A DNA stretch of 44,786 nucleotides from Akkermansia muciniphila (GTDB taxonomy: Bacteria > Verrucomicrobiota > Verrucomicrobiia > Verrucomicrobiales > Akkermansiaceae): contig CAMAYN010000007.1 in the NCBI GenBank assembly GCA_945862285.1, forward strand, positions 1 to 44,786, in the 5' to 3' direction. Positions within the stretch are counted from its first letter, which is position 1. Every line of letters starts with the position of its first letter. Shown piece after piece: positions 35,489-43,498 of the stretch. The notes under the pieces were generated by a model. The model saw only the letters and a program-made list of their open reading frames with translations, did no database searches and had not been told where the DNA came from. A program made the translations under genes and the position numbers.

Positions 35489-36868
35489 ATGAAGTATCTG
35501 ACATTCTTTTTCTATGCCGTCCTCGCGCTGTCTAAAACAGCCATTGGCGCACCGAATTTCATTTTTATACTATCCGATGACCTCGCCCAGGGGGATTGTG
35601 GATCTTACGGTCAAAAGCTGATCAAGACTCCAAATCTTGATCGCATGGCGCGTGAAGGCACTCGCTACGAGCAGGCTTATTCCGGCACCAGCGTTTGTGC
35701 CCCAAGCCGCACTTCACTGATGACGGGACTGCACATGGGGCATTCGCCGATACGCGGAAATCGGCAGGCGCAGCCAAATCAGGAGGGACAAAAACCTTTG
35801 CCCGATGGCACATTTACCGTCGCAAAACTTCTTAAAAGTGCAGGCTACTCGACCGCAGTGACAGGGAAATGGGGCATGGGAATGTTCGATACCTCTGGTA
35901 GTCCACTCAACGTCGGCTTCGACCGATTCTTTGGCTACAATTGCCAAGCCCACGCCCATAGTTATTTCCCCACTCACCTCTACGATGACGCAAAACGCAT
36001 CGACCTCCCAGGGAATGACGGCAACAAATCGATCAATGGCAAGGGCGAAGTCTATGCACAAAATCTGATCGCGGATGAAACACTCAAATGGGTGCGCGAG
36101 CATAAGGAAAAGCCGTTCTTCCTGTTCTATGCGATCACATTACCCCATGACATTCATCAAATTGACAATCAGGGAATTTACAAAAATCAACCATGGACGG
36201 ATCAACAGAAAAATTACGCTGCGATGGTCACACGGCTCGATAGCGATGTCGGGCGCTTGCTCGATTTGCTTGTGGAACTCGGGATCGACAAAAATACGCT
36301 CGTCATGTTTGCAGGGGATAATGGATCGTCCTTTTCTTCAGAATCACCAGTTGGTAAACTCTTTGATCAGACCATGGGCGGCAAACTGCGCGGCTTTAAA
36401 CGATCGATGTACGAAGGTGCCCTACGCCAAGCCTCCTTCGCATGGTGGCCTGGTACGGTGCCCGCAGGTCGTGTGACCGATGAACCTTGGGCGTTCTGGG
36501 ATTTTCTGCCTACAGTGGCGGAACTTAGCGGAGCAAAAATTCCCGCATCGGTGAAAAGCGATGGACTCACGCTGGCTTCATTTCTCAAAGGTGGCTCGGC
36601 ACCGAAGCGCGATTATTTTTACTGGGAACTTCACGAAGGTACTCCGATTCAAGCCGCACGATGGGATGACTGGAAAGCTGTCCGCAACGGGATTTCAAAA
36701 CCGATCGAGCTCTACAATTTGAAAACGGATCAAAGCGAAGCAAAAGACATCGCTAAAGAAAATCCCGAACTCGTCAGCAAAGCTGCCGCGATATTCAAAT
36801 CTGCGCGAGTCGATGATCCCGCTTGGCCGCTTACCGAAAAGAATAGCAAAAAAGTCAAAAAGAAGTAA
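35489..36868 (+). CDS. Secreted sulfatase (first)
   Basis: The 459-residue protein has a signal peptide (residues 1-20), then [18 protein letters not shown] with metal-binding Asp residues. The formylglycine site is [11 protein letters not shown], with C70 the residue to be oxidised. TGKWGMG follows, and FAGDNGSS supplies further metal ligands. It belongs to the arylsulfatase A-like family; the maturing enzyme must be encoded elsewhere. It removes sulfate esters from sugars outside the cytoplasm. It starts 77 bases after the esterase-like gene and ends 36 bases before a second sulfatase. The C-terminus ends in a Lys-rich tail (NSKKVKKK). Confidence 0.93.
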
Positions 36869-36904
36869 CGCCTTTCACTCGCATATCAGGCTCTACCCAC
36901 TTCC

Positions 36905-38323
36905 ATGAAAGCCCTATTTTTTCTGCTGTTTTTTCATTCCTATCTGATCGCCGCCGTAGCAAAGCCGAACGTGGTTTTTTTACTCGTGGATGACCTCGGA
37001 TGGGCCGACTTCGGTTGCTATGGTGCCAAGTTTTATGAAACGCCAAATATCGACAAGCTCGCCGCCCAAGGGATGCGTTTTACCCATGCCTATTCCGCCT
37101 GCACTGTTTGTTCGCCAAGTCGCGCGGCGATTTTGACTGGTTGCTATCCCGCGCGGATTCACCTTACCGACTGGATTGCTGGCCATAAAAAACCGCAGGC
37201 ACGGCTCAAGATTCCAGACTGGAAAATGAAAATCGACCACGAACGAATCCTTCTTCCCGAGGCGCTCAAGGAAGGGGGATATGCAACGGGCTTTTTCGGC
37301 AAATGGCATCTCATGCCCGATGGCGCGGCTGATTTCAGCAAGCATTATCCCACCGATCACGGCTTCGACTGCAACATCGGTGGCAGAGAATGGGGACAAC
37401 CCAAAGGACCCGGGAAATACTTTGCACCATTTGGTATGCCGAATCTAAATGGCAAACCAGGGGAGTTTTTGACCGATGCGCTTACCGATCAAGCATTGGC
37501 ATTCATGGAGAAACATGCGCCCTCGACGCCGTTTTTCTTGTACCTTTCCTACTACACCCTGCACTCTCCACTCATGGCACCTGCTGACTTAGAAGCGAAA
37601 TATCGCAAAAAAGCTCAAGGGTTCGATAATCGAAAAAAGGAACTTCTGAATCCTCAGCGAGCTGGAATGGTGGAATGTCTCGACCGCAGTGTAGGCCGGA
37701 TTCGCGCCAAACTCGATGAATTGGGACTAACCGAAAATACCATCATCATTCTAACAGGCGACAACGGCGGTGACCATCAAGAAGTCACTGGCGGACTGAG
37801 CCAGTTCAAAGGCTTCTCCCATGAAGGTGGCGTACGCGTGCCGTTGATTGCCCAGTGGTCGGGAAAAATTCCTACTGCTACAATTTGCGAAAAGCCCGTT
37901 ATCGGCACCGATTTCTATCCGACGATTTTAGATCTAACGGGTCTGCCAGCACGACCCGAACAACACGCCGATGGTCTCAGCATTTCTTCATTGCTCAGAA
38001 ATCCATCGGCAAGTCTATCCCGAGAAGCAATCTACTGGCACTATCCCCATTACCACCGCACCAATCCCTACGGCGCGATCCGCAAGGGAGATTGGAAGTT
38101 GATCGAATTTTTCGAGGATGGCAGCACAGAACTTTATGACCTCAAAGCCGATCCTTTTGAAAAAAACAACCTCGCCAAGGCAGAGCCAGAACGTGCCGAG
38201 TCGATGCGATCCGATCTTGTCGCTTGGAGAAAATCCGTGGCAGCACAAATGCCGACACCGAATCCGAACTACCAGCCTGTTGACAAATCGGGAAACAAGA
38301 AAAAGAAGAAATCTCGTGAGTGA
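36905..38323 (+). CDS. Secreted sulfatase (second)
   Basis: The 472-residue protein has a signal peptide (residues 1-18) and the motifs VDDLGWADFGCYG, CSPSRAAILTG with formylglycine Cys C69, FFGKWHL, and LTGDNGGDHQ. It is a different paralogue from the preceding sulfatase, sharing the fold but not close identity. The C-terminus has a Lys-rich tail (GNKKKKKSRE). It lies 36 bases after the first sulfatase, so the two are probably co-transcribed. The pair would remove sulfate groups at different positions of the same glycan; that specificity is inference. Confidence 0.93.
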   Translation: MKALFFLLFFHSYLIAAVAKPNVVFLLVDDLGWADFGCYGAKFYETPNIDKLAAQGMRFTHAYSACTVCSPSRAAILTGCYPARIHLTDWIAGHKKPQARLKIPDWKMKIDHERILLPEALKEGGYATGFFGKWHLMPDGAADFSKHYPTDHGFDCNIGGREWGQPKGPGKYFAPFGMPNLNGKPGEFLTDALTDQALAFMEKHAPSTPFFLYLSYYTLHSPLMAPADLEAKYRKKAQGFDNRKKELLNPQRAGMVECLDRSVGRIRAKLDELGLTENTIIILTGDNGGDHQEVTGGLSQFKGFSHEGGVRVPLIAQWSGKIPTATICEKPVIGTDFYPTILDLTGLPARPEQHADGLSISSLLRNPSASLSREAIYWHYPHYHRTNPYGAIRKGDWKLIEFFEDGSTELYDLKADPFEKNNLAKAEPERAESMRSDLVAWRKSVAAQMPTPNPNYQPVDKSGNKKKKKSRE

Positions 38324-38416
38324 AGTTTCTTAGAGTCGAGCATGAAATCTAGCATTTATGAACCCCATGTTTCTATCGTGTGATGAAATTTTAAGCATCT
38401 AACAAAGTATTTTTCT

Positions 38417-40084
38417 ATGATGACTCGTTATATCTCACACAAAATTCCAGCAACTTTCCTTTCTGCGGTATTTGCTCTATCGACAGCAAATCGATCTTAC
38501 GCGAAAGAACAACACGAAGCGGACATCGTGGTTTATGGCGGCACATCGGGCGGGATCATTGCCGCGATCCAAGCCGCTAAATCGAATCGTTCTGTCGTTC
38601 TCGTGTCCCCAACGACCCACCTTGGCGGGCTGACCACCAGTGGACTTGGCTGGACGGATCTAGGCAGCGATGCGATTCTCGGCGGACTCAGTCGGGACTT
38701 TTATACACGATTATTTCACTACTATGAAAAGCCCGATTCATGGAAATGGGAAGATCGGAAAAAATTCGGCAATAGCGGACAAGGCGTGCCTGCGCTCAAC
38801 GCCAAAACCCAACTTGCATCGGTATTTGAACCATCTGCGGCGAGCTTTCTCTTTGATCAAATGCTTAAAGAGCACTCCATCAAGGTCGTCACCGCGCGCT
38901 TAGATCTGAAAAGTGGCGTTGTAATGAACGGGAAAAAAATCCACATGATCCGCGCGGAAGACGGTAGCGAATTTGCGGGGAAAATGTTTATCGATGCGAG
39001 TTATGAAGGCGATTTACTTCCTGGTGCCGGCGTGAGTTTTACCGTTGGTCGTGAGTCAAATGCGACATTCGGCGAAAGTCTCAATGGCATTCAAGCGCGC
39101 CACGCCGTGAAGAATCAACTGCCAGATGGCATCGATCCCTACATCATACCAGGCAACCCTTCCAGCGGTCTCTTACCAGGTGTGAACCCAAGCTCTGGCG
39201 GCAATGACGGCGAGGCAGATCATCGATTACAAGCGTTTTGCTATCGAATGTGCCTGACGGATGTTGCAGAAAATCGCGTCTCCATTGCCAAACCAGAGGG
39301 TTACCAGGAAGCAGACTATGAATTACTCTTCCGCGCAATTGAAGCCGGACAGCAGAAACACTTTACTAAGTTTAGTCTCTTACAAAACCGCAAAACTGAC
39401 TCAAATAACACCGGTGGAATTTCCAACGACATGATTGGGGCTAACTACGGCAAGGACTGGGATTGGACGACGCTCAACCACGATCAACGCAATGCTCTGG
39501 CAAAAAAGCACGAAGATTGGCAGCGTGGCCTAATGTGGACTTTGCAAAATCATCCAAGAGTTCCAGAAAAGATCCGCAAGGAATATGCCAAATGGGGCTT
39601 GCCGAAGGACGAATTCTTGAACAACCACCACTGGCCGCCACAACTTTACATTCGCGAAGGACGGCGGATGGTTTCTGATTTAGTCATGACGGAACACCAT
39701 TGTCAGCGCAAGCAACCGGTAGCCGATTCTGTCGCGCTCGCCTCCTACACTATGGATTCACATCATGTTCAGCGATTTGTGAAAGCTGGCAAAATCAAGA
39801 ATGAGGGCGACGTACAGGTACAAATTCCTGGCCCGTATCCGATCTCTTATCGAGCGATTATTCCGAAGAAGGGCGAATGCGAAAACCTCTTCGTTCCGTG
39901 GAGTCTTTCCGCCAGTCATATTGCCTTCGGCTCCATCCGCATGGAACCTGTATTTATGATCCTTGCTCAAAGTTCCGCCACGGCGGCGGACTTAGCGATT
40001 ACTCACGGGATCTCTGTGCAGAATGTCTCCTACGAGGAACTCGCGAAACGACTCATCAAAGACGGACAACGTCTTGCGCTTTAG
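38417..40084 (+). CDS. Secreted FAD-dependent oxidoreductase
   Basis: The 555-residue protein has a signal-peptide-like start (KIPATFLSAVFALSTANRSY, then AKEQ). A dinucleotide-binding fold follows: ADIVVYGGTSGGIIAAIQAA, then THLGGLTTSGLGWTDLG. DASYEGDLLPGAGVSFTVGR and a C-terminal FAD-closing segment complete the pattern of the FAD_oxidored family common in Planctomycetes and Verrucomicrobia. These enzymes are often near sulfatase and glycoside-hydrolase genes, but no substrate is proven. It is the fourth gene of the plus-strand block after the esterase-like protein and two sulfatases. Confidence 0.85.
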   Translation: MMTRYISHKIPATFLSAVFALSTANRSYAKEQHEADIVVYGGTSGGIIAAIQAAKSNRSVVLVSPTTHLGGLTTSGLGWTDLGSDAILGGLSRDFYTRLFHYYEKPDSWKWEDRKKFGNSGQGVPALNAKTQLASVFEPSAASFLFDQMLKEHSIKVVTARLDLKSGVVMNGKKIHMIRAEDGSEFAGKMFIDASYEGDLLPGAGVSFTVGRESNATFGESLNGIQARHAVKNQLPDGIDPYIIPGNPSSGLLPGVNPSSGGNDGEADHRLQAFCYRMCLTDVAENRVSIAKPEGYQEADYELLFRAIEAGQQKHFTKFSLLQNRKTDSNNTGGISNDMIGANYGKDWDWTTLNHDQRNALAKKHEDWQRGLMWTLQNHPRVPEKIRKEYAKWGLPKDEFLNNHHWPPQLYIREGRRMVSDLVMTEHHCQRKQPVADSVALASYTMDSHHVQRFVKAGKIKNEGDVQVQIPGPYPISYRAIIPKKGECENLFVPWSLSASHIAFGSIRMEPVFMILAQSSATAADLAITHGISVQNVSYEELAKRLIKDGQRLAL

Positions 40085-40243: not shown

Positions 40244-41560
40244 ATGGAATTCCAATGCCCACACTGCCAGCTTAGCATGACCTCTGAAGACGAACATGCT
40301 GGAAAAATCGTCTCATGCCCGGGATGCAATGGTAAATTTCAAATCCCACCTTTACCCGCTGCGCCGGTAAGCCAAATCAGCGGCAACAAGACCTCTTCAT
40401 CTGCTGCTCCAGCACAACGCGGCGGCTGGCATGAGGAAGACCATGCCAATGTCGGCTTTTTTTCAAGCCTTTCCTTTGGTGTCGTCATTAGTGCCCTATT
40501 TTTTGTCTCCATGATTCCTGTGCTCTCACCAGATGAGAAAAAACCCATGCTTGGTGATATTTTCCTACGCCGCGGCTGGGTCAATTATGCCGAAGTCTTT
40601 CTCTTTATTTGGGGCATGGTCATCCTTGTGATGAAATGGAAAAAGACCACACGCCAGCGGCGAGCTATGCTTCTCGACATCGTTCCCGCTAAACTCGGAA
40701 GCGAAATCAACTCGGAAACCGTCGGCGGCTTTATCGAGCACATCTATAAACTCCCCAATCGACTGCGCGATAGCCTCATGGTGAACCGAATCCGCAAAGG
40801 CATGGAGCTTTTTGAAAAACGCAACAACAATGGCGAGGTAGGCACCTTTCTGAACTCGCAGTCGGACATTGATGCCAATCGCATCTCCGGTTCTTACACT
40901 CTCTTAAAAGTCTTCCTGTGGGCCATTCCAATCCTCGGATTCATCGGCACGGTGCAGGGTTTGTCGGTCGCGGTCAGTTCGCTGTCTGCTGGCTCCACCG
41001 ATCCAGAGGCTCTTAAGTCATCGATCAATAACCTCACCGGCGGACTTGGTGTGGCATTCGATACGACTCTCCTCGGACTGATCCTTTCCATGATCATGTC
41101 ATTCCCCATGGCCGTGATGCAAAAGGAAGAAGAAGAAATGCTCACTGAAATTGATGCCTTCTGCACGGAGAAGCTCTTGCCAAAACTAAACGACTCTCAA
41201 AACTCGACAAATGACTTACTACTATCGCAAGCGGAAAATATTCCAGCTTTTGCTGCATCTTTGTCACGTGCCCACGAGCAGTTTCTTGTAAAATTACAGG
41301 ACGCATCGACTCTTTTACGCGACGCGGGAGAAACGTTGAAGACACGTCTCGACGCACATCAGACAAGAGTCGAAGGCACATTTCAGCATGCGATAGATAA
41401 ACTCACTTCACAAACATGTGATTCCTTTCAAGAGTCAACCAAGCAACTCAATCAATATTTTGCTTCACTCAACAAAGGCGTTGAATCTCTTAACGAAACA
41501 CTGAAACAACTGGGGGGAGAAACCATTACTATCAAGAAAAAAGGCCTATTCTCTCGATAG
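40244..41560 (+). CDS. Zinc-ribbon-fused ExbB/TolQ/MotA-like channel protein
   Basis: The 438-residue protein has an N-terminal zinc ribbon (C5-x2-C8 and C25-x2-C28), then hydrophobic helices at about 72-94, 113-130, 220-247 and 270-290. The last two carry the MotA/TolQ/ExbB core: PILGFIGTVQGL at 229-240 and AFDTTLLGL at 271-279, with Thr residues that line the proton path in the family. A helical, coiled-coil-like C-terminal part follows (about 330-430). It would form the proton-channel subunit of a stator-type complex. I chose ATG 40244 (MEFQCPHC). It heads a three-gene operon with two one-pass partner proteins. Confidence 0.88.
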   Translation: MEFQCPHCQLSMTSEDEHAGKIVSCPGCNGKFQIPPLPAAPVSQISGNKTSSSAAPAQRGGWHEEDHANVGFFSSLSFGVVISALFFVSMIPVLSPDEKKPMLGDIFLRRGWVNYAEVFLFIWGMVILVMKWKKTTRQRRAMLLDIVPAKLGSEINSETVGGFIEHIYKLPNRLRDSLMVNRIRKGMELFEKRNNNGEVGTFLNSQSDIDANRISGSYTLLKVFLWAIPILGFIGTVQGLSVAVSSLSAGSTDPEALKSSINNLTGGLGVAFDTTLLGLILSMIMSFPMAVMQKEEEEMLTEIDAFCTEKLLPKLNDSQNSTNDLLLSQAENIPAFAASLSRAHEQFLVKLQDASTLLRDAGETLKTRLDAHQTRVEGTFQHAIDKLTSQTCDSFQESTKQLNQYFASLNKGVESLNETLKQLGGETITIKKKGLFSR

Positions 41561-41581
41561 TCCACTTCTTCATCATTGTCC

Positions 41582-42400
41582 ATGTCGCGTCGCAATTCCA
41601 GTGCAGCCGGAACCGGAGTATCGCTCTTCCCTTTCTTGAGCATCCTCGCATGCTTAATCGGCGTTCTCACGATGATGATTAAGATCATTACCGATGTAAA
41701 AGCACAGGAAACCCAAGGGCGCGATGAAGAAGAACTGGCACGCGCAAGGCAATTCCAACAAATCCAAGGGGAAATCAAAAGCCAACAAAAGGAATTGGAA
41801 AAAATCAATGCCGTCCTCAAAGAACGCAACGCTGCACTCGTGGATCTGAGCGAACTGGAAAACAAACGGATCATCCTACGTAAAAAACTCGACGATACCA
41901 AATCCAAACCTCAACAATCCGATGAAGCATTGCAGAAGTTGCTGGAGCAGATGATCGATCAAATTGCCGCGTTAAAAAGCGAACGACCGACCCTCGAAAA
42001 AGAACTCGCTGCGCTCAAGGAAGAGTTAGCTCGGCGTAAAATCAAGCCCGATAGCAAACCTCAACCCGTGCGTATCAACCCCACTGGTTCAGGAATCTAT
42101 AGCAACACGGATGTTCTCTTTGTCGATTGCAATGCGAATGGCGTGGTCATCCTTGGCAAAAATGGAGTGAAGACAACCGTTTCCGCCGCTACGATCGATA
42201 CCGATGGCAGTCTCGCTGCGGCATTTAACAAAACAAAATCATCTCGCGAACACCTCGTGCTATTTTTTATCCGCAATGATGGCAATAGCAGCTATTATAA
42301 GGCCGCTGTAGTCGCGGAAACCAAATACCAACTGCGCACAGGAAAATTACCCATCCCCACCCAGGGAGAGATCGATCTCTCACTATTCCTCAAACGTTGA
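41582..42400 (+). CDS. One-pass coiled-coil protein, ExbD-like without the membrane Asp
   Basis: The 272-residue protein has one N-terminal membrane helix, SLFPFLSILACLIGVLTMMI (residues 14-33). A coiled coil of about 100 residues follows, rich in Lys, Glu and Gln. A C-terminal domain, starting near residue 165, contains SNTDVLFVDCNANGVVIL and HLVLFFIRNDGNSSYYKA. The layout matches ExbD, TolR and MotB. At the position where those proteins have a proton-binding Asp in the helix, this one has Ser20. The start is the ATG at 41582; a TTG six bases earlier is possible. It lies between the ExbB-like gene and a second one-pass protein, with gaps of 21 and 6 bases. Confidence 0.7.
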   Translation: MSRRNSSAAGTGVSLFPFLSILACLIGVLTMMIKIITDVKAQETQGRDEEELARARQFQQIQGEIKSQQKELEKINAVLKERNAALVDLSELENKRIILRKKLDDTKSKPQQSDEALQKLLEQMIDQIAALKSERPTLEKELAALKEELARRKIKPDSKPQPVRINPTGSGIYSNTDVLFVDCNANGVVILGKNGVKTTVSAATIDTDGSLAAAFNKTKSSREHLVLFFIRNDGNSSYYKAAVVAETKYQLRTGKLPIPTQGEIDLSLFLKR

Positions 42401-42406
42401 TCAATC

Positions 42407-43498
42407 ATGGCTCGCAGAAAAAACAACAACGAACAAGGTGTGAGCATGGACTCACTCATGGACGCGCTGACTAACGTCGTCGCGGTGCTGATCGTGATTC
42501 TCATTCTCCTGCAATGCGATGTCCAAAACCAGGTGGAGAAACTTCTCAATGACCTAAAACCTGCATCCACAGAAGAAATCGCCGCGGCGCAAATGCAGAA
42601 ACAAAACCTCATTACTCAGATCAAAAGTAAAACCGACTTGTTAGGTGCGCCCGAACCCACACCCGAACAATTTGGCAAAATCGAAGCGGATCTGATGCTT
42701 TTGGAAAAATCGCTCAAAAAACATGATACTAGCCTCATGGAGTTGGCGAACTTACGCAAAAAAGTCGAAGAACAAAAAAGCCTCGTCGGAGTCGAACAGA
42801 AAAAGACCGACGCCATTCTTGTAGAAATCGCGCGCATCAAAGCCCTGCTTGATCAAACCCCGATCCCCAAAGCTCCTTCGCCCACTGTCGTGCGAATTCC
42901 CAATAGTCGCCCGATCCCAGAATCGGCAGAACTTTTCTATTGTTTCATCATCAACGACCAAGCTCATTTAGTCGATGCACCAGCGGCAAAAAAAATGATC
43001 ATGAAGGAAATGAAAGACCATGAACGAGACTTACTGCGCTCCATCAATAAAGTCCCCAAAAAGCCCGACGTGAAGATATTCGACCAAGAAAAAACTGTTA
43101 CCCACTTCGCCCAAAGCAATCTCAAAATTCGTAATTACAACATAACCGTGCCCTACAACAAGCCATGGCCTGTGCTATACATGCGAATTACTTTCGACCC
43201 AAAAAAAGGCGATGCCAGTCTCGCTGATATGGAGCAACCTAAAGGTCGATTTCACAACGTGTGCAATTATGTTCGTTCCGTGCCACGCAGCGTGATCATT
43301 TTTAAAGTCCACACCAATGGATTCGCCACCTATCTCAAAGCGCGTGAAATTGCCGACTCCCTGAATATTCCCTGCGGATGGGAAGTTGACAACAATCCCT
43401 ATTATCAAGAAAGGCTGGATTTTAAAGTCAATAACCTAGAACAACCCCCAAAACCAACCGGCCCGAGCAAACCTGGACTGACGCGTAAGCTCGATTGA
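42407..43498 (+). CDS. One-pass coiled-coil protein, ExbD/MotB-like with the membrane Asp
   Basis: The 363-residue protein has one N-terminal membrane helix, MDALTNVVAVLIVILILLQC, with D19 where ExbD and MotB have their proton-binding Asp. A coiled coil spans about 40-155. A Pro-rich linker (PIPKAPSPTV) leads to an outer domain with AELFYCFIINDQAHLVDAPA and VCNYVRSVPRSVIIFKVHTN. The C-terminus is basic and Pro-rich (PPKPTGPSKPGLTRKLD). It starts six bases after the previous gene. With the ExbB-like gene it would complete a proton-driven machine; the task of that machine is unknown to me. Confidence 0.72.
   Translation: MARRKNNNEQGVSMDSLMDALTNVVAVLIVILILLQCDVQNQVEKLLNDLKPASTEEIAAAQMQKQNLITQIKSKTDLLGAPEPTPEQFGKIEADLMLLEKSLKKHDTSLMELANLRKKVEEQKSLVGVEQKKTDAILVEIARIKALLDQTPIPKAPSPTVVRIPNSRPIPESAELFYCFIINDQAHLVDAPAAKKMIMKEMKDHERDLLRSINKVPKKPDVKIFDQEKTVTHFAQSNLKIRNYNITVPYNKPWPVLYMRITFDPKKGDASLADMEQPKGRFHNVCNYVRSVPRSVIIFKVHTNGFATYLKAREIADSLNIPCGWEVDNNPYYQERLDFKVNNLEQPPKPTGPSKPGLTRKLD

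Follow-up and report, generated by a model that had tools for sequence, protein, structure and literature searches.

Current models of 5:2 motors assume two identical rods with alternating aspartates, and the rods of MotA-MotB and PomA-PomB are identical and carry an OmpA-like head. In ExbBD, TolQR and MotAB, proton transport relies on the rod aspartate together with the ring threonines, and the pore holds the two rods in unequal positions (PMC12965293). A 36-degree step is discussed for 5:2 motors in PMC9389320, and PMC12204202 already reports a TolQ-like gene followed by two different TolR-like genes, from the same bacterial group as the locus described here. We analyzed a 44,786-nt stretch of Akkermansia muciniphila DNA (hereafter the window; forward strand of contig CAMAYN010000007.1, assembly GCA_945862285.1), which contains a three-gene cassette encoding a zinc-ribbon-bearing ring protein (gene 1) and two paralogous rod proteins (genes 2 and 3), only the second of which carries the canonical aspartate. 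As a TolQ with two different TolR proteins was previously reported, the cassette is a further variant of a known arrangement. A first-pass annotation of the window had put the arrangement forward as a candidate undescribed system, which holds for the rods, as they belong to no catalogued family, and apparently for the Asp-lacking partner, but not for the TolQ-plus-two-TolR layout (PMC12204202). No report of an Asp-lacking partner, a zinc-ribbon ring or an acid switch was found in the literature covered, although most subscription journals lay outside that coverage and absence is not proof.

The cassette is real and conserved as a unit rather than a chance arrangement. The three genes are separated by 21 bases (gene 1/gene 2) and 6 bases (gene 2/gene 3), and their coordinates, gaps, start codons and residues were all verified as first placed. 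A scan of species genomes with a gene 1 profile yielded 425 relatives (counted as genome-contig matches), of which the best 80 were read. The gene triplet was found side by side and in the same order in about 77 of these 80 loci; in the remainder, a contig end interrupts the locus or gene 3 is broken. The suggestion to look for conserved triplets in Verrucomicrobiota was thereby answered positively. All of the best 80 belong to Verrucomicrobiota where a group is named. Whole-genome sampling covered the Verrucomicrobiota, where the gene 1 family was present in 74 of 388 genomes across the phylum; within the window's genus, each of the ten sampled genomes had gene 3, whose distribution across the family and order was patchy. 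Viral contigs yielded no gene 3 relative.

Gene 1 (40244..41560, + strand; 438 residues) is a MotA/ExbB-family subunit with two invariant ring threonines. It matches PF01618 (MotA_ExbB) with E=1e-10 and 41.9 bits, against a Pfam cut-off of 22.9, with the domain at residues 182-294 (40787..41125, +), and its best PDB match is 8vvn, a MotA/TolQ/ExbB chain of 696 residues; PomA was also matched. Thr236 (40949..40951, +), equivalent to ExbB Thr148 and TolQ Thr145, and Thr275, equivalent to ExbB Thr181 in the relatives' alignment and part of an Asp273-Thr274-Thr275 motif (41060..41068, +), are both invariant in 147 gene 1 relatives. Hydropathy gave four membrane segments, which would place an N-terminal zinc ribbon and a long C-terminal tail in the cytoplasm, as in MotA. 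The ribbon (residues 4-32; 40253..40339, +) contains a CxxC...CxxC motif at residues 5-28 with only weak matches to Pfam zinc-ribbon families. Its four cysteines are kept in 78 of the 80 relatives that were read, the two exceptions being a protein whose start coincides with a contig end and another that begins only at the second CxxC pair. The original description of this protein as a zinc-ribbon-fused ExbB/TolQ-like channel was confirmed by the above-cut-off PF01618 match and the ribbon motif.

Gene 2 (41582..42400, +; 272 residues) and gene 3 (42407..43498, +; 363 residues), both identified by their frame, conservation and hydropathy, each have one N-terminal membrane segment, and they are paralogous one-helix proteins of which, in the window, gene 3 alone carries the canonical Asp. 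Profile-profile comparison aligned the two over their full length (98.5%, E=3.5e-15), placing Ser20 of gene 2 (41639..41641, +), at the site of the proton-carrying Asp, opposite Asp19 of gene 3 (42461..42463, +), in agreement with the first-pass annotation. Within the window's own genome, the gene 2 profile retrieved gene 3 with E=1.9e-4. Asp19 aligns with the ExbD Asp and is invariant in all 76 readable gene 3 relatives, and the helix around Ser20 is among the most conserved parts of gene 2. The relatives further pointed to Asp15 of gene 3 (42449..42451, +), one helical turn ahead of Asp19. Neither rod matched a Pfam or NCBIfam family, nor did their relatives match any consistent family; PF02472 (ExbD/TolR) had no match in the window rods or in any of the 34 members of the rod relative sets A2 and A3. 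Profile comparison against the genome's eight ordinary ExbD-type proteins gave a link for the gene 3 membrane helix alone, with its Asp in register (E=0.006).

Beyond the membrane helix, the rods continue into charged stalks that are poor in Pro and Gly; in gene 2, profile alignment together with hydropathy and periodicity analysis assigned a helical stalk to residues 40-155 (41699..42046, +). While the single membrane helix of each rod stood as first described, the coiled coil was only moderately supported, as neither window rod showed significant heptad periodicity in its best 56-residue stretch, and the periodicity was weakly significant over the whole stalk. For the outer domains, AlphaFold2 models were confident, with a mean predicted local distance difference test (pLDDT) score of 87.6 for gene 2 (residues 177-257; 42110..42352, +) and 92.8 for gene 3 (residues 175-327, with a large insertion; 42929..43387, +). 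In a second-look structural alignment, the periplasmic domain of E. coli TolR (5by4) ranked first for both, with Z 7.5 and a root-mean-square deviation (rmsd) of 3.0 over 86 residues for gene 2 and Z 7.2 and rmsd 2.7 over 87 residues for gene 3, both below Z 8, a level that unrelated folds also attain; ExbD structures came next for gene 2 (8pek, Z 6.6). With Foldseek alone, neither outer domain had a match at E<0.001; the lists were dominated by proteins of ribosomal or RNase H-like kind, and TolR stood at rank 47 in the gene 2 list. Considering both the Z scores below 8 and the lack of significance in Foldseek alone, the TolR-like fold of the two outer domains is suggestive rather than proof. 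The cores of these domains alone are homologous by profile comparison (E=4.1e-7), so the earlier idea that the outer domains differ in kind, and hence may bind two different partners, was not upheld.

The acids of the two rod helices vary between cassettes in a linked manner. Five cassette types were distinguished by motif and by eye, with the window cassette belonging to type I. In 74 of 93 type I loci, a gene 2 Ser is paired with gene 3 Asp at i-4 and also at i (positions 15 and 19 in the window), and in the other 19, a gene 2 Asp is paired with Val at i-4 of gene 3; neither pairing has an exception. Cultured carriers include Haloferula rosea KCTC 22201 (L083) and Roseibacillus ishigakijimensis KCTC 12986 (L093), both of the Ser type, and Verrucomicrobium sp. 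BvORR034 (L126) of the Asp type. Asp15, which was missed in the first-pass annotation, accompanies every Ser-type gene 2 in type I. The 19 Asp/Val loci form one nested clade with a Shimodaira-Hasegawa-like approximate likelihood ratio test (SH-aLRT) value of 99, and given this nesting, Ser appears to be the older, ancestral state of gene 2 inside type I. The ring changes along with the rods, as Thr274 of gene 1 is Ala in 19/19 loci of the gene 2-Asp clade and Thr in the 74/74 other type I loci. However, about a dozen gene 1 positions differ on that branch, Thr274 being one among them, so a tie between its change and those of the rods is plausible rather than proven. The original description of one active and one inactive rod fits the window but is too simple, since the active rod has both Asp15 and Asp19 and a subclade has its second acid in gene 2. 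Likewise, Asp in both rods, which had been named as a finding that would count against the idea, does occur among homologs (19/93 type I loci and types II, IV and V), whereas the window's own branch lacks it.

Outside type I, the pattern is partly repeated. Type III cassettes have a gene 1 of about 500 residues, a gene 2 that mostly carries Ser, Ala or Cys, and a gene 3 with Asp at i-4 and i, and a type III variant (L268) with Asp in gene 2 and Asn at i-4 in gene 3 also fits. In types II, IV and V, Asp is present in gene 2 and also in gene 3. The single exception is a type II gene 3 (L239, 4305-5213, - strand) with Gly at the canonical site; its Asp lies a turn before that (SLDLLLGPMCN), so the acid appears to have shifted along the same helix. 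The gene 1 tree was made quickly, and its types are joined by long branches; on it, the Asp of gene 2 changes four times, and in three independent contrasts the i-4 acid moves as expected in 2.4 on average and never in the opposite direction. A simple exchange of acids across the whole superfamily was ruled out, as type II has both acids and family f34 of type III has neither.

We consider it probable that the cassette encodes an inner-membrane motor driven by the proton-motive force, of the MotAB/ExbBD/TolQR (5:2) kind, in which a gene 1 pentamer surrounds an obligate gene 2-gene 3 heterodimeric axle. This is favored by the protein family and ring threonines of gene 1, and also because the triplet is kept as a unit and has no other conserved neighbor, because the states of gene 2, gene 3 i-4 and ring Thr274 change together, and because genes 2 and 3 are full-length paralogs with Ser20 opposite Asp19, a shared outer-domain core and TolR as the top match of both. 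In such a motor, protons would pass between Asp19 of gene 3, aided by Asp15, and the threonine ring, with gene 2 as a silent structural half of the axle that would not accept protons at the canonical place. The stalks would keep the paired TolR-like heads at a good distance from the membrane, close to the cell wall or outer membrane, while the zinc ribbons and tails of gene 1 would couple the ring to something inside the cell; a pentamer would carry five such ribbons ringed in the cytoplasm. An axle with a single proton-accepting helix would make one power stroke per ring subunit, and with one such helix rather than two alternating ones, steps of about 72 degrees instead of about 36 degrees would be expected. 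We put forward more tentatively, and with some doubt, that the axle is asymmetric, with both relay acids (Asp15 and Asp19) on the gene 3 helix and a proton-silent partner, and that the second acid once moved to the other helix together with the change of Thr274 to Ala, converting one active helix to two. For the cellular job, envelope maintenance is likelier than defense.

Several observations weigh against these proposals. The co-switch in type I is, as read from the tree, one branch and so a single evolutionary event, and three contrasts are too few for significance (p 0.25 at best). A second acid at i-4 is not required, as family f34 of type III has Ser there in gene 3 alongside an Asn in gene 2. 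Most type II cassettes combine a gene 2 Asp with Glu or Asp at i-4 of gene 3, which shows that no plain swap of acids runs through the family as a whole. In addition to the low Z scores of the TolR matches, sequence profiles do not connect the rod outer domains to ExbD. Finally, both the 5:2 assembly and the heterodimer are inferred.

Other uses of the same three proteins were weighed against the heterodimeric axle. The axles of known 5:2 motors are homodimeric, and for the three-gene AglRQS motor the choice between homodimer and heterodimer is still open according to PMC9389320; it is conceivable, if unlikely, that two motors share one ring protein, gene 1 pairing either with gene 3 homodimers, which would be active, or with those of gene 2, which would be proton-dead and act in regulation or as a plug. 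The conserved triplet and the linked changes of gene 2, gene 3 and Thr274 on one branch better fit a single shared complex. Gene 2 could instead sit outside the pore, on the exterior of the ring like TonB or TolA, and pass on force from an axle made of gene 3 alone as a homodimer. TolA/TonB and vWA transducers bind the motor edge (PMC12204202), and gene 2 lacks the Asp required of an axle helix. This placement seems improbable to us, considering that gene 2 is paralogous to gene 3 over its whole length with its helix in register, and that a subclade has an Asp in gene 2 at the same site, which an edge-binding helix would not need. The lost Asp could also mark gene 2 as a degenerating duplicate heading for loss, which we regard as scarcely credible: the Ser does not vary across 74 loci, the helix around it ranks among the best conserved parts of gene 2, and gene 2 is retained wherever neighboring sequence is available. 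The invariance of this Ser rules out gene 2 as a degenerate pseudogene.

A relationship to the Zorya anti-phage system had to be considered as well, since ZorA provides the closest named models for gene 1 (NCBIfam ZorA_2, E=1.3e-10; PADLOC ZorA2, E=2.7e-13), the matches reach into part of the cytoplasmic tail, and 8vvn is the best PDB match. Nevertheless, gene 1 scores 40.9 bits against ZorA_2, where the curated cut-off is 100, and ZorB models were unmatched by gene 2 and reached only E=0.3 with gene 3. No effector genes (ZorC/D, ZorE or ZorF/G) were found adjoining the window cassette, there is no conserved effector-like neighbor, and none of the sampled genomes of the genus lacks the cassette. 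We therefore judge a Zorya relative to be very improbable, and identity with Zorya itself was ruled out by the scores, the missing partners and the neighborhood.

The surroundings of the cassette differ between lineages. In the window, sulfatase and oxidoreductase genes lie on one side and genes for a Dabb protein and NuoA on the other; the two sulfatases and the flavin adenine dinucleotide (FAD)-dependent oxidoreductase (PF12831) are directly upstream on the same strand (35489-40084) and are not conserved with the cassette. Around type I cassettes, no neighbor family was conserved beyond local synteny. Promoter and terminator scans gave no more matches than in shuffled sequence. In a Prosthecobacter-like group (L096, L097, L100, L101, L115, L117, L121 and L124), the cassette follows genes resembling ribBA, ribH, nusB and ftsY, and its gene 3 is larger, at about 515 residues. 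One genome (G007), placed in the window's genus despite its Asp/Val type, has the cassette divided between contigs C5 and C40 (L177 and L178, both of Asp/Val type), with genes 1 and 2 together and gene 3 apart, which may be a true split or a binning error. Seven type III loci (L183, L185, L187, L188, L192, L242 and L245) lie just upstream of fabZ, usually followed by lpxA and a GspD-like secretin gene, and in some genomes an NHL-repeat protein is encoded between the ring and rod genes. This strong envelope-biogenesis context of type III hints at envelope work. Type IV cassettes have a protein of about 358 residues between the ring gene and the two rod genes (L271, 1846-2922, +), for which no Pfam match was found.

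If the asymmetric axle is correct, a rod without Asp, together with a sister clade having the second Asp on the other rod, would offer a direct test of whether rotation and force need alternating proton sites. The cassette would also add a widespread, uncatalogued envelope machine to Verrucomicrobiota, with rods that fall in no Pfam or NCBIfam family.

Compared with known systems, the ring subunit shares four segments and a cytoplasmic N-terminus with MotA-MotB and PomA-PomB, from which the cassette differs in having TolR-like heads and two different rods. Zorya has the nearest named relatives of gene 1 in its ZorA-ZorB core, part of the cytoplasmic tail included, but it has one Asp-bearing ZorB and attached effector genes, neither of which is a feature of the window cassette. 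With ExbB-ExbD and TolQ-TolR, the cassette shares the ring threonines (T148/T181 and T145/T178), the one-helix rods, the canonical Asp (in gene 3) and a putative TolR-type outer domain, whereas those systems have identical short rods with Asp in both and no zinc ribbon. Ordinary members of these families also occur in the window's own genome, with eight matches for ExbD and six strong ones for ExbB. The genome contains an ordinary exbB-exbD-exbD triplet (L165, L167 and L173; G000:C170:4633-5898), in which both ExbD proteins keep their Asp (FSDIAF and MGDIAF), and an ordinary two-gene ExbB/ExbD pair (L168; G000:C53:4040-4384) whose ExbD has Asn at the canonical site (PLLNLVGLLLL) and is possibly another Asp-lacking rod.

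Two described systems resemble the cassette in gene content. The AglR-AglQ-AglS gliding motor of Myxococcus xanthus likewise has one MotA-like and two MotB/TolR-like proteins. According to the available part of PMC9389320, AglQ and AglS both carry the conserved Asp, where gene 2 of the window has Ser20, and that part does not describe a zinc ribbon. The Planctomycetes-Verrucomicrobia-Chlamydiae (PVC) system of PMC12204202, as far as the available part describes it, shares the order of one TolQ-like gene followed by two different TolR-like genes, combined in the cluster with vWA and TPR genes. Type II relatives (motifs SFQDI and LELLLD) appear to be this system, and types II and IV probably correspond to the systems of that paper; a vWA domain was detected in a downstream gene of the one type II locus examined (L191, E=7e-5) and weakly matched in the type IV locus L271. 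Neither beside the window cassette nor among the conserved surroundings of type I loci was a vWA or TPR gene found, and the available part of PMC12204202 does not mention Asp-lacking partners. What sets the window cassette apart from that system is the absence of a vWA/TPR gene and the presence of a zinc-ribbon ring, long-stalked TolR-like heads and a gene 2 without Asp.

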